A stretch of 44,239 nt of DNA, taken from positions 1-44,239 of the forward strand of contig JAUYLN010000025.1 in assembly GCA_030698885.1 (NCBI GenBank), given 5' to 3'. The notes below the pieces were generated by a model that saw only the letters and a list, made by a program, of their open reading frames with translations, did no database searches and had not been told where the DNA came from. A program made the translations under genes and the position numbers. Source of the stretch: a bacterium (GTDB lineage Bacteria > Patescibacteriota > Minisyncoccia > 2-02-FULL-40-12 > IGHO2-01-FULL-4-A). Position 1 is the stretch's first letter. Each line of letters opens with the position of its first letter. Shown one piece after another: positions 34,720 through 38,508 of this stretch.

Positions 34720-36021
34720 ATGAATAAACCGGTAAATTTAAATGATATAAAAAAAATCTACATGGTAGGTATCAAGGGTACCGGCATGGCTTCACTGGGG
34801 GTTAATCTCAAAAACATGGGCATAAAAGTATCCGGTTCCGATTCTCCCGAAGTCTTTTTTACTGATCAACTGCTCAGGCGACATGGCATAAAAGTCTTCT
34901 CCCCTTTTAATAAAGATAATATTCCGGCCGATGTTGATTTGGTTGTTGCGTCTACTGCTTATAATAACAAAAACTCTGAGTTTAAAGAAGTTGAGATGAG
35001 GGGTATACCGTTGATGACTTATCCTGAGGTTATCGGTTTATTGAGTAGAGAGATGAAATCGGTTGCTGTCTGCGGGAGTCATGGTAAGACTACGACTTCG
35101 GCACTTCTGGCGTATATTTTATCTAAATCAAAAATGGGTGTATTACCCAATGTCGGCTCTATTGTCCCACAGCTGGTTAATTATAAGATGAAAGGCAGAC
35201 CGGGAGTCTTTATGTATGAAGCCGATGAATACCAGAACAAGCTTAAGCTATATAGCGCCGACGTTGTTATTTTAACTAATGTGGACTATGACCACCCGGA
35301 TTTTTTTAAAACTGAGAAAGAATATAAAAAAGTTTTCAGAGATTTTATAAAAAGAATACCTGTTGGTGGGCTTCTAATATATTGCGCCGGCGATAAAGAA
35401 GCAGTCAGGATAGCAAAATACGCCAAATGCAGAAAGATAGGTTATGATACGAAAGAATCTCAAGAATACCCCGCTCAGCTAATAGGTGCGCATAATAGGC
35501 TTAATCTTTCGGCTGCTATTGTATGCGCAAGAGAGTTTGGCGTGTTACACGGTATAATTAAAAAAGCTGTGGTGGATTTTAGGGGTGTTAAGCGAAGGCT
35601 TGAAATAATAAAAAAGACCCGGCTTAACGGGAATGAATGTTTACTTATAGATGATTATGGTCATCATCCCGCAGAAATTAAGGCCACTATTTCTGCTATT
35701 AAGGAAGCATATCCCAAAAAGATGCTATGGACCGTTTTCCAGCCGCATACTTTCAGCCGCACGGAGGCCCTGTTTGACGATTTCACGAAATGTTTTTCAG
35801 GTTCTGATAAAACCGTAATTCTGGATATTTATGCTTCGGCCCGCGAAAATAGAGGAACTATACATTCTCGTGATTTGGTGAATAAAATAAATAGTTCGGG
35901 CGTAGCATATCAGCCAGGCATAAAAGAAGTGGCTAGATTTTTAAAACAAAAAATAAAAACCCCGAGCATCATTATGACCATCGGAGCAAGCAACGTCTGG
36001 CGTTTGCACGAGCTGTTGTAG
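34720..36021 (+). CDS. murC: UDP-N-acetylmuramate-alanine ligase (MurC)
   Basis: 433 residues. The N-terminal Rossmann part has YMVGIKGTGMASLGVNLKNMG, the ATP P-loop is GSHGKTTT (about 119-126), YEADEYQNKL and NVDYDHPDFF follow, and the C-terminal domain carries DDYGHHPAEIKAT and FQPHTFSRTEAL, both MurC signatures shared with Mpl. It adds L-Ala to UDP-MurNAc in the cytoplasm. The MurE-like ligase at 7675 and FemAB at 12009 would act later in the same pathway. Mpl is less likely, given the compact length. The start is ATG at 34720. Confidence 0.92.
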   Translation: MNKPVNLNDIKKIYMVGIKGTGMASLGVNLKNMGIKVSGSDSPEVFFTDQLLRRHGIKVFSPFNKDNIPADVDLVVASTAYNNKNSEFKEVEMRGIPLMTYPEVIGLLSREMKSVAVCGSHGKTTTSALLAYILSKSKMGVLPNVGSIVPQLVNYKMKGRPGVFMYEADEYQNKLKLYSADVVILTNVDYDHPDFFKTEKEYKKVFRDFIKRIPVGGLLIYCAGDKEAVRIAKYAKCRKIGYDTKESQEYPAQLIGAHNRLNLSAAIVCAREFGVLHGIIKKAVVDFRGVKRRLEIIKKTRLNGNECLLIDDYGHHPAEIKATISAIKEAYPKKMLWTVFQPHTFSRTEALFDDFTKCFSGSDKTVILDIYASARENRGTIHSRDLVNKINSSGVAYQPGIKEVARFLKQKIKTPSIIMTIGASNVWRLHELL

Positions 36022-36035
36022 TCTTTAATTAAGCT

Positions 36036-36298
36036 GGTAATAAAAAGAGAGCCCCGCGGCAAGGATTGGACCTTGCGCGGGGCGTTTCGCTTTGGCCAGG
36101 AGCCCGTTCTTCGGGCTCCCGGGGTTACGGCCGCGACGCCGGCTGCGGTGATCAGGTCGAGCTATGGCTATGCATAATCAGGCGGTGGGCCGTTGCCGGC
36201 CCGCTTCGATTCCTCGTCATGGCGCCTCCCCTCTCGATTTTTGGATTTGCGGTTTGCACCGCATTCATCGAGAGTGTGTGCAGACTCTTAGTCTACAT
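36036..36298 (-). ncRNA. Candidate structured non-coding RNA, unidentified
   Basis: About 260 bases, far more GC-rich than its surroundings, with no credible reading frame. On the minus strand a perfect promoter ends at 36304, then several stems occur in order: AGACT-aag-AGTCT; a closing helix CTCTCGAT/ATCGAGAG around TGCGGT-GCAA-ACCGCA; GGGCCG-GCAA-CGGCCC inside AGGCG/CGCCT; GGAGCCCG-aaga-ACGGGCTCC; and finally the terminator. Two stems are capped by GCAA, a GNRA tetraloop. I see no conserved core of RNase P RNA, tmRNA, 6S RNA or SRP RNA. It lies between murC and the repeat-bounded module. That it is transcribed and folded is inferred. Confidence 0.65.
36037..36083 (-). terminator. Terminator of the structured RNA
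   Basis: On the minus strand GCCCCGCG-CAAGG, a 6-base loop, then CCTTG-C-CGCGGGGC, followed by TCTCTTTTTATTA. Confidence 0.85.
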
Positions 36299-36303
36299 TA
36301 TTA

Positions 36304-36332
36304 ATTATAGCAAAATTGGTATAAAATGTCAA
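36304..36332 (-). promoter_or_regulatory. Perfect-consensus sigma70 promoter for the structured RNA
   Basis: -35 TTGACA (36327-36332), a 17-base spacer and -10 TATAAT (36304-36309), all identical to consensus. A second TTGACA is at 36334-36339. It is the only full-consensus promoter I found in the window. Confidence 0.88.
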
Positions 36333-36352
36333 GTGTCAATTGTTAAACCACC

Positions 36353-36390
36353 TAAAAGGCTTGATTTTCAAGGATTTTTAAGTGATTATT
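36353..36390. repeat. 38-bp direct repeat, left copy
   Basis: Identical over 38 bases to 38471-38508. It contains CTTGA-ttt-TCAAG, a short inverted repeat. It lies 14 bases from the -35 region of the structured RNA. Confidence 0.9.
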
Positions 36391-36426
36391 TAATGTTAGC
36401 AGCTAGTATTCTCGTTAAGCATTATA

Positions 36427-36461
36427 TATAAAAAATAAAGCCCCATACAATCGTGGGGCTT
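36427..36461 (-). terminator. Rho-independent terminator of the 36490 gene
   Basis: On the minus strand AAGCCCCA-cgattgta-TGGGGCTT is followed by TATTTTTTATAT. It is still inside the repeat-bounded module. Confidence 0.82.
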
Positions 36462-36489
36462 ATCAGCAATGTACTAAACTTTGATTTAA

Positions 36490-38331
36490 TTACTTTTTCG
36501 GAATCTTTTTTTCGATTTCCCGAAGTTCCTCTGGTGTGAGATTTTTAATTCTTTCTGTTATTGTCCGGGCATCCTCAGCCGCCTCCCGATTGCTACGAGC
36601 TTTATCGTCAATAGCACGGGCTTCGGCTTGAGTCTGACTCTCAGATAGACTTATTGTCAGGTTATTGAAGCTGTGCATTGGGATTACATCCTGATCGGAG
36701 GCGTATATCTCGATTCTGACCAAGTGGCCGTCCCTAGTCACCGGTAGTTCCGGTGAATGACCGGCCCCTGCAGTAAACAGATGGGGAATATCTTTTAGAT
36801 ATAAGTAATACACCGTGCCCTGTGTTGGAGTGACCTCACTTCCTACAAGAGACACAGTACCCTCAATAACCTGAATGTCTCGGCTGCCTTCGACTGTTGC
36901 CCGTCGTCCGGTCTCGGTCAGAAGTTTCTCATAATTTCTTACCGATTCTTGAGCGCTTCGTCCAGATGCAACAGCTTGAATGTCGTTGATAGATACCATG
37001 GCCACCCCCTGGAAAGCGTGACTTTCATTAAGAAGCGGTACTACGGCCGTAGGCAGACCGTTAACATTGTACAGCTGAACCGCAGCACCATGTAGGTGTT
37101 TAAACTGGATGTCCTGATTCTTATTTACGGCATCCAACACTGCCGATGTTGTGCCTCCTCCCGGCATCTGGTATCTGGTGGTTTTGCCGGTCCGAGAGTT
37201 AGTATAAACGAGAGCGACCAAAGAATCGTCGCTGGAATTCGTTGAAGTAATATCGATAACCCATTCCGGCTGGTCATTATTGCCATAGATGAGTAAAGCC
37301 CAATTTCCGTCTGGTGTGGTGATGCCTTTTTTGCCCCACCAGCTATTGAGCCATCCATTAGAGTATGAGCCTTGCCAATCGAGGTAGTTGACGATGAAAT
37401 CATCAGGAATGACCCTGTCAACCCATTCGGGAACTTTGCCTAGTTCGTGGAATATATGGTTGCCCGAAAATGGATTAACAATAACTACTCCCAAAACTTT
37501 TTCACCAGACCAGCCGAGAGTCGGCTTGAAGGCCGTGATAACCCACCACGGATTTCCTTCGTCATCAATCTCAAGTGACGTTTCGGTAAGGCCTGTGCCG
37601 AGATAGCCATTGTTTCGTAGATAGCGCTCCAGATTATCACCAAAGAAGGCGCCGGGTGTATAACGCATACCCTTTCCCTCCGGAAACTGGACAAGCTCGG
37701 CCTGTCTGTGGGGGTCCTCTCCTGATACTTTGACGTAGCCAGGTGCGCCACTGGTGTTCATCCAAATACTGAAACCGGCAAAGTCCAGTGGTGCCACGAA
37801 AGTCAGCTCGCCCTTAATCATCTGGACTGTCATTTTCCCAAGCTCAAACTGGCTTCCAATAGCGCCGGCAGTGCCAAGCACCTTCTGAGCCTGATATGAG
37901 GCATTCTCCTTGCTGGCCATTCTCATATGGGCCGGATCTTTTGGTTGAACGTCTTCAGTCCAGGTTCTTTCCTCAATATCGCCTAGGTGATTGATGATTG
38001 AAGCGTAAGTATTAGCTCGAAGCATTGTTGAATTGAAAAATGCGATTGCGACATAGATTACGACTGCACTGGCTGGAAATACCCAAAGTAACGGAGTGCC
38101 ATCGTCGTCAGCGACAGCAATAATCGCCGCAACCACCCACCAGATCATAGTCATGAATCCCACGAGTCCGAAGAGCGGGTAAACTGTCGTTGCTACTGCT
38201 AAGTAGAAAATCGCCCAACCAAGAAAAAATGTCAGGACGCCCTGTAAGGCAGCGGCAATCGGCTTTTTTATAAATACGAGCGGAATAGCACCAACAACTG
38301 CAGCAATCAAAGCAGAAAGTAGATAATACAT
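36490..38331 (-). CDS. Hypothetical membrane protein with a large exported domain, module cargo
   Basis: 613 residues. Four membrane helices occupy about 1-110. A long exported part follows with PLDFAGFSIWMNTSGAPGYV, NPWWVITAFKPTLGWSGEKVLGVVIVNPFSGNHIFHELGKVPEWVDRVIPDDFIVNYLDWQGSYSNGWLNSWWG and RIEIYASDQDVIPMHSFNNL, and a charged coiled tail (AEARAIDDKARSNREAAEDAR) ends it. I do not recognise the family. Its codons look richer in G and C than neighbouring genes, and it is the only gene between two 38-bp direct repeats, both of which suggest acquisition. AGAGGAA precedes the ATG, a proper ribosome site, again unlike most neighbours. No recombinase accompanies it. Confidence 0.75.
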   Translation of the reverse strand: MYYLLSALIAAVVGAIPLVFIKKPIAAALQGVLTFFLGWAIFYLAVATTVYPLFGLVGFMTMIWWVVAAIIAVADDDGTPLLWVFPASAVVIYVAIAFFNSTMLRANTYASIINHLGDIEERTWTEDVQPKDPAHMRMASKENASYQAQKVLGTAGAIGSQFELGKMTVQMIKGELTFVAPLDFAGFSIWMNTSGAPGYVKVSGEDPHRQAELVQFPEGKGMRYTPGAFFGDNLERYLRNNGYLGTGLTETSLEIDDEGNPWWVITAFKPTLGWSGEKVLGVVIVNPFSGNHIFHELGKVPEWVDRVIPDDFIVNYLDWQGSYSNGWLNSWWGKKGITTPDGNWALLIYGNNDQPEWVIDITSTNSSDDSLVALVYTNSRTGKTTRYQMPGGGTTSAVLDAVNKNQDIQFKHLHGAAVQLYNVNGLPTAVVPLLNESHAFQGVAMVSINDIQAVASGRSAQESVRNYEKLLTETGRRATVEGSRDIQVIEGTVSLVGSEVTPTQGTVYYLYLKDIPHLFTAGAGHSPELPVTRDGHLVRIEIYASDQDVIPMHSFNNLTISLSESQTQAEARAIDDKARSNREAAEDARTITERIKNLTPEELREIEKKIPKK

Positions 38332-38470
38332 TTCCTCTTCTCCTTGCTATTTTGGAGTCTTTGGCTCAGGCATAGCTACCCTTTTAATTGTCAGAGAACA
38401 TCAGCCATCTGAAGCTGTATGCATACAATAACACATATAGAGTAATTAAATCAAGAGGCAATTTACACTT

Positions 38471-38508
38471 TAAAAGGCTTGATTTTCAAGGATTTTTAAG
38501 TGATTATT
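38471..38508. repeat. 38-bp direct repeat, right copy
   Basis: It ends 5 bases before the ychF start codon, so it also forms the ychF 5' region. Confidence 0.9.

Follow-up and report, generated by a model that had tools for sequence, protein, structure and literature searches.

The window analysed here, the whole 44,239-nt stretch of DNA, carries on its minus strand a predicted RNA of ~250 nt that would run from ~36298 to a terminator end near 36040. It lies behind a full-consensus sigma-70-type promoter, TTGACA-N17-TATAAT (36304-36332, minus strand), with the -35 box at 36332-36327, the -10 box at 36309-36304, a spacer of 17 nt and a TG ahead of the -10 box. At the other end is an intrinsic terminator, GCCCCGCGCAAGG-UCCAAU-CCUUGCCGCGGGGC followed by UCUCUUUUU (36040-36083, minus strand), and the two signals flank the RNA element on both sides. 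Both had been described in the first-pass annotation and are present at these positions. The promoter is the sole 12/12 site within the 3.9 kb of surroundings scanned, and a genome-wide scan for the exact pattern upheld the earlier statement that it is the only full-consensus promoter in the window. Nine such promoters with spacers of 16-18 nt, six with a spacer of 17 nt, were counted by the same scan in the 957-kb genome.

The ~260 nt past the promoter are 62% GC (0.60-0.635 per 200 nt), in agreement with the GC-rich stretch first described. The genome averages 0.41 (sd 0.057, 200-nt windows), and just 21 of its 15,519 windows of 200 nt have a GC content of at least 0.60. With 41% GC the genome is only moderately AT-rich, which tempers the earlier wording. 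Fold energy regressed on base composition genome-wide performed poorly at high GC, and dinucleotide shuffles were therefore used instead. The whole RNA folds at -120.2 kcal/mol, compared with -88.4 for the shuffles (z -6.9); on the same scale, the tmRNA and RNase P RNA of this genome have z -2.6 and z -6.7.

Four hairpins precede the terminator, all read on the minus strand. H1, UGUAGACU-AAG-AGUCUGCA (36279-36297; z -3.6), is near the predicted 5' end. H2 (36231-36274; z -6.5) has an outer stem of 8 bp (CUCUCGAU/AUCGAGAG), an inner stem of 6 bp (UGCGGU-GCAA-ACCGCA) and a 3' internal loop, AAUCCAAAA. H3, GGGCCG-GCAA-CGGCCC (36187-36202), is inside a poorly defined middle, and H4, CCGGGAGCCCG-AAGAA-CGGGCUCCUGG (36096-36122; z -4.2), is followed by the terminator hairpin (z -4.8). 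H1, H2, H4 and the terminator make up the excess of the whole RNA over shuffles; the central 107 nt (transcript nt 69-175) showed no folding beyond shuffles (z +0.2). The two GCAA tetraloops reported earlier are both there, one at 36257-36254 and one within H3 (36202-36187). The "at least four nested stems" are better described as a series of hairpins with an ill-defined middle, and a molecule well folded over its entire length is not supported. An opposite-strand frame of 121 codons (36066-36431) was rejected as a gene; it has no Pfam match and extends through the promoter.

No Rfam 15 family reached its gathering threshold on the minus strand of the locus, and none was found there at E up to 10; the matches obtained were chance ones on the opposite strand, far under threshold. 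RNase P RNA (RF00010) has no match at the locus and was found at G000:C14:68329-68770 (91 bits, slightly below the cut-off). The tmRNA (RF00023) is likewise elsewhere, at L104:18594-18946 with the tag AKQNSNYALAFA, and ARAGORN finds none in the window. 6S RNA (RF00013) had no match genome-wide at E <= 0.001, SRP RNA (RF00169) had none at the locus or elsewhere in the genome, and RF01854, searched in the window alone, had none there. The first-pass annotation had likewise been unable to match the RNA to any of these four known RNAs.

A single homologue was found, in G003, a genome of a different genus in the same family. It came to light not through a model but in a survey of the sequence behind each full-consensus promoter of G003: there are four such promoters in 876 kb, and the homologue is just downstream of one of them, in the same orientation. 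A model, R3, was then derived solely from window sequence (60 nt, H2 plus the start region), for a segment chosen after the G003 locus was seen. Searched against the entire 876 kb of G003, it gave this locus as the top match (21.4 bits, E 0.034), the next being at 13.2 bits (E 3.3). The coincidence with the promoter is independent evidence: with just four such promoters in 876 kb, the chance that a match would lie on the correct strand and no more than ~60 nt past one of them is, by our estimate, of the order of 1e-4.

Both copies have the 8-bp outer and 6-bp inner stem, the 3' internal loop AAUCCAAA (with a following A in the window, 36239-36247) and then GGAGGC-N-CAUGACG, which in the window is GGGAGGC-GC-CAUGACG (36215-36230), a Shine-Dalgarno-like GGAGG 4 nt from an AUG. 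In a two-sequence alignment, hand-trimmed in the loops to fit that structure, both copies form all 14 pairs, seven of them changed on both sides and none broken; the control, with partners slid by 1-3 columns, gave 0-2. With just two known members, these compensatory changes amount to a single comparison and carry limited weight. Aligned by plain sequence, the two RNAs scored just modestly above shuffles (2-7 of 1000 shuffles reach the score), and a common 8-mer, GATCACCG, was dropped as expected by chance. H1 and the GCAA loops are absent from the G003 copy, which has a 10-nt loop, so GNRA loops are not supported as the mark of a class. Once its terminator is left out, the G003 copy shows no fold excess over shuffles (z -0.4).

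Searches for further members covered a wide range of sequences. BLAST-type DNA searches gave no match in 58 relatives or in phages and plasmids. A 207-nt single-sequence covariance model, run over the order (45 genomes) and the class (384 genomes), gave only a 21-bit match in G356, rejected as it sits in an apparent coding region. Exact 17-mers in the genomes of 85,000 species (29 matches) and in viral contigs (7) were all chance according to the model and nhmmer, and motif patterns in viral contigs had many matches, none with the promoter-stem-loop arrangement. The pattern AATCC..GGAGGC..ATGACG matched, over the 384 class genomes, in G003 and also in G030, G069 and G082, at a rate similar to a reversed control, and the matches in the latter three look coding. 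A two-sequence model over the 384 genomes added matches at E 0.04-0.8, which were chance on inspection, and the promoter loci of the six other family genomes held no third member. These scans, which can miss diverged copies, thus yielded no further homologue, either in the other six genomes of the family or among the rest of the 384, and with one homologue in 384 class genomes a widespread RNA class is not borne out.

The genes around the RNA differ between the two genomes. In the window, a convergent Mur ligase gene lies downstream and ends at 36021, with no gene on the same strand downstream of the RNA; upstream are a gene for a 613-aa protein (36490-38331, minus strand) and then YchF (38514, plus strand). 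In G003, the RNA is between a divergent MreB-like and a convergent helicase-like gene (names read off the sequence) and has its own terminator. Since the neighbours are not the same and no gene that the RNA could regulate lies downstream in either copy, the RNA is best described as freestanding, with its own promoter and terminator in both genomes, and a cis-regulatory leader was ruled out on the same ground.

The 613-aa protein has no Pfam match. A close relative, 88% identical, occurs in another family of the order, and further relatives are patchily spread over the class. Perfect 38-bp direct repeats flank its gene (36353-36390 and 38471-38508), and the segment is therefore probably an insert, before which ychF would have lain next to the RNA, in divergent orientation. 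The 2.1 kb from 36353 to 38508 resemble a recently moved cassette without its own recombinase. Such disturbed surroundings, directly upstream of the RNA, would suit a rival reading, in which the GC-rich stretch is a decaying or accidental remnant of a gene from a mobile cassette and has retained promoter and terminator, as would the arrangement in G002 and G005, where ychF directly adjoins the Mur ligase gene and the RNA is missing from between them, and a fragment in other frames that resembles protein-coding DNA in G004. However, the promoter is perfect, every strong hairpin is intact and a homologue with compensatory changes occurs at an unrelated locus, and we regard a remnant as unlikely.

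The first-pass annotation had missed a plausible translation start after the 5' hairpin, with GGAGG 4 nt ahead of the ATG of a 22-codon frame, MTRNRSGPATAHRLIMHSHSST* (36152-36220, minus strand). The transcript might be a short mRNA that codes for a 22-aa micropeptide and has, after a structured leader at the 5' end, coding and 3' parts of unusually high GC content. The start directly follows the leader hairpin and the layout is alike in G003; GGAGGC with AUG looks like the start of the small protein genes that many full-consensus promoters drive in the family; and the middle part, without excess folding, is like coding RNA. On the other hand, the G003 frame, MTFTFAPSG*, has 9 codons and has Met-Thr alone in common with that of the window, which gives no support to a conserved peptide. 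The peptide has no Pfam match, and its frame spans just 69 of the ~250 nt. The distance from GGAGG to AUG (4 nt in the window, 3 nt in G003) is within the range of the genome but at its short end, the mode being 5-6 nt in 27 longer genes. We hold a micropeptide mRNA to be possible, though with the chances clearly against it; ribosome binding at GGAGG...AUG, as judged from the sequence, is possible in itself.

A very divergent housekeeping RNA, chiefly the missing SRP RNA or 6S RNA, was also considered, as neither RF00169 nor RF00013 is detected in the genome. The RF00169 small SRP RNA model, which was positive in 11 of 14 controls, found nothing in 46 genomes (the present one, G000, with others of its family and order, and one of the class). 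These 46 genomes, mostly of the order, thus have an SRP RNA that is either very divergent or of another type, and some gene must escape the models. The lack of a match in all 46 suggests that the model does not reach this group, and does not mark the window RNA as the SRP RNA. A bacterial SRP RNA is expected in the genome and was not located there; the window RNA has neither a match to its model nor, by eye, the SRP helix-8 loop motif, and it is not universal in the family. It has the abundant-type promoter and the freestanding gene in common with 6S RNA, but its hairpins are serial, whereas 6S RNA is a long rod with a central bubble, and the 6S model does not match it. A housekeeping RNA would be expected in all relatives, yet a homologue was found in only one of seven other family genomes, and other candidates are better placed, for example that at ~163.0 kb of G000:C6, present in at least five family genomes. 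We therefore consider a housekeeping RNA very unlikely.

Several other putative RNAs were noted. The one in G000:C6 (L092:2795-3053, minus strand) is an unassigned structured RNA of ~230 nt (z -7.5) with a full-consensus promoter; it recurs in G002, G003, G004 and G005 (L168, L225, L251 and L212) with the pattern CUGGG...CUUUGCGGUAAC...CUACUGCAAGGGAAAA, and is a better candidate than the window RNA for the missing housekeeping RNA of the family. A GC-rich, many-stemmed putative RNA of ~1.1 kb (L097:577-1720; G000:C12, ~40.6-41.7 kb, plus strand) has a full-consensus promoter and no Rfam match (z -8.5 against 20 shuffles, 989 nt folded). It holds a 14-nt segment, AAGGAGGTGATCCA, that is the exact complement of the 3' tail of the 16S rRNA of the genome (reverse-strand match at L057:747) and lies in a GGGGCCGACC/GGTCGGCCCC hairpin. 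A third, of ~480 nt (L075:2540-3055, minus strand; G000:C32), is GC-rich and structured (z -5.9), with a full-consensus promoter, a terminator-like end and no Rfam match. In G006, two short promoter-driven RNAs (L241 and L228) have a common hairpin whose arms read GGAGG...CCUCC and whose loop is CAAUCGAGC-like, and may be another small family.

Taken together, the window RNA is probably a real, lineage-limited small RNA, and the earlier view of an unassigned, freestanding RNA gene stands: it has no Rfam family, RNase P RNA and tmRNA are elsewhere, 6S RNA is undetected and there is a homologue with compensatory changes. We see about an even chance that it is a freestanding, lineage-restricted structured sRNA gene of ~250 nt, with a strong promoter and a terminator of its own, in which the 5' domain is the conserved working part and the role is likely regulatory. 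The promoter, the terminator, the hairpins, the homologue with its compensatory pairs and the freestanding position are features of the sequence, whereas we infer transcription, the binding of a partner and the engagement of ribosomes.

In such an sRNA, the two-part stem of H2 would present the single-stranded AAUCCAAA loop, which would most likely recognise a partner, either a protein or another RNA. A few bases past H2, the GGAGG...AUG would be exposed and could be bound by the 30S ribosome, so that the RNA may, as its sequence suggests, engage ribosomes: it might, for example, draw ribosomes to itself, or the partner might switch the start open or closed. In a bolder version, which we find unlikely, the two copies would be the first of an RNA family of their own, where a conserved AAUCCAAA-loop stem gates a conserved ribosome-binding start without a conserved protein, ribosome binding itself being the function. 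Such a family would evolve fast in a lineage that, judged from genome sizes and gene content, appears to be host-dependent with a reduced genome (Patescibacteria-like).

Freestanding sRNA genes of bacteria have a sigma-70 promoter, a structured RNA of 50-400 nt and an intrinsic terminator. The window RNA has the layout, size, intergenic position and terminator hairpin in common with them, and is clearly of this known kind; its family is new to Rfam, with no match among the Rfam 15 families, and is known from two genomes only. Some sRNAs have a dual function with a short reading frame, for example SgrS. With these it has in common a ribosome-binding start after a structured 5' part, a short frame and a terminator, whereas its peptide is not conserved between the window and G003 copies.

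In the open-access literature we found no paper that deals with structured non-coding RNA in this bacterial group. The locus also shows that full-consensus promoters offer a good way to such RNAs when covariance models do not find them: the G003 copy was seen via its promoter after a search by sequence and structure had missed it. The non-coding RNAs of uncultured small-genome bacteria are almost uncharted, and this locus provides a concrete member, with one relative backed by compensatory changes.
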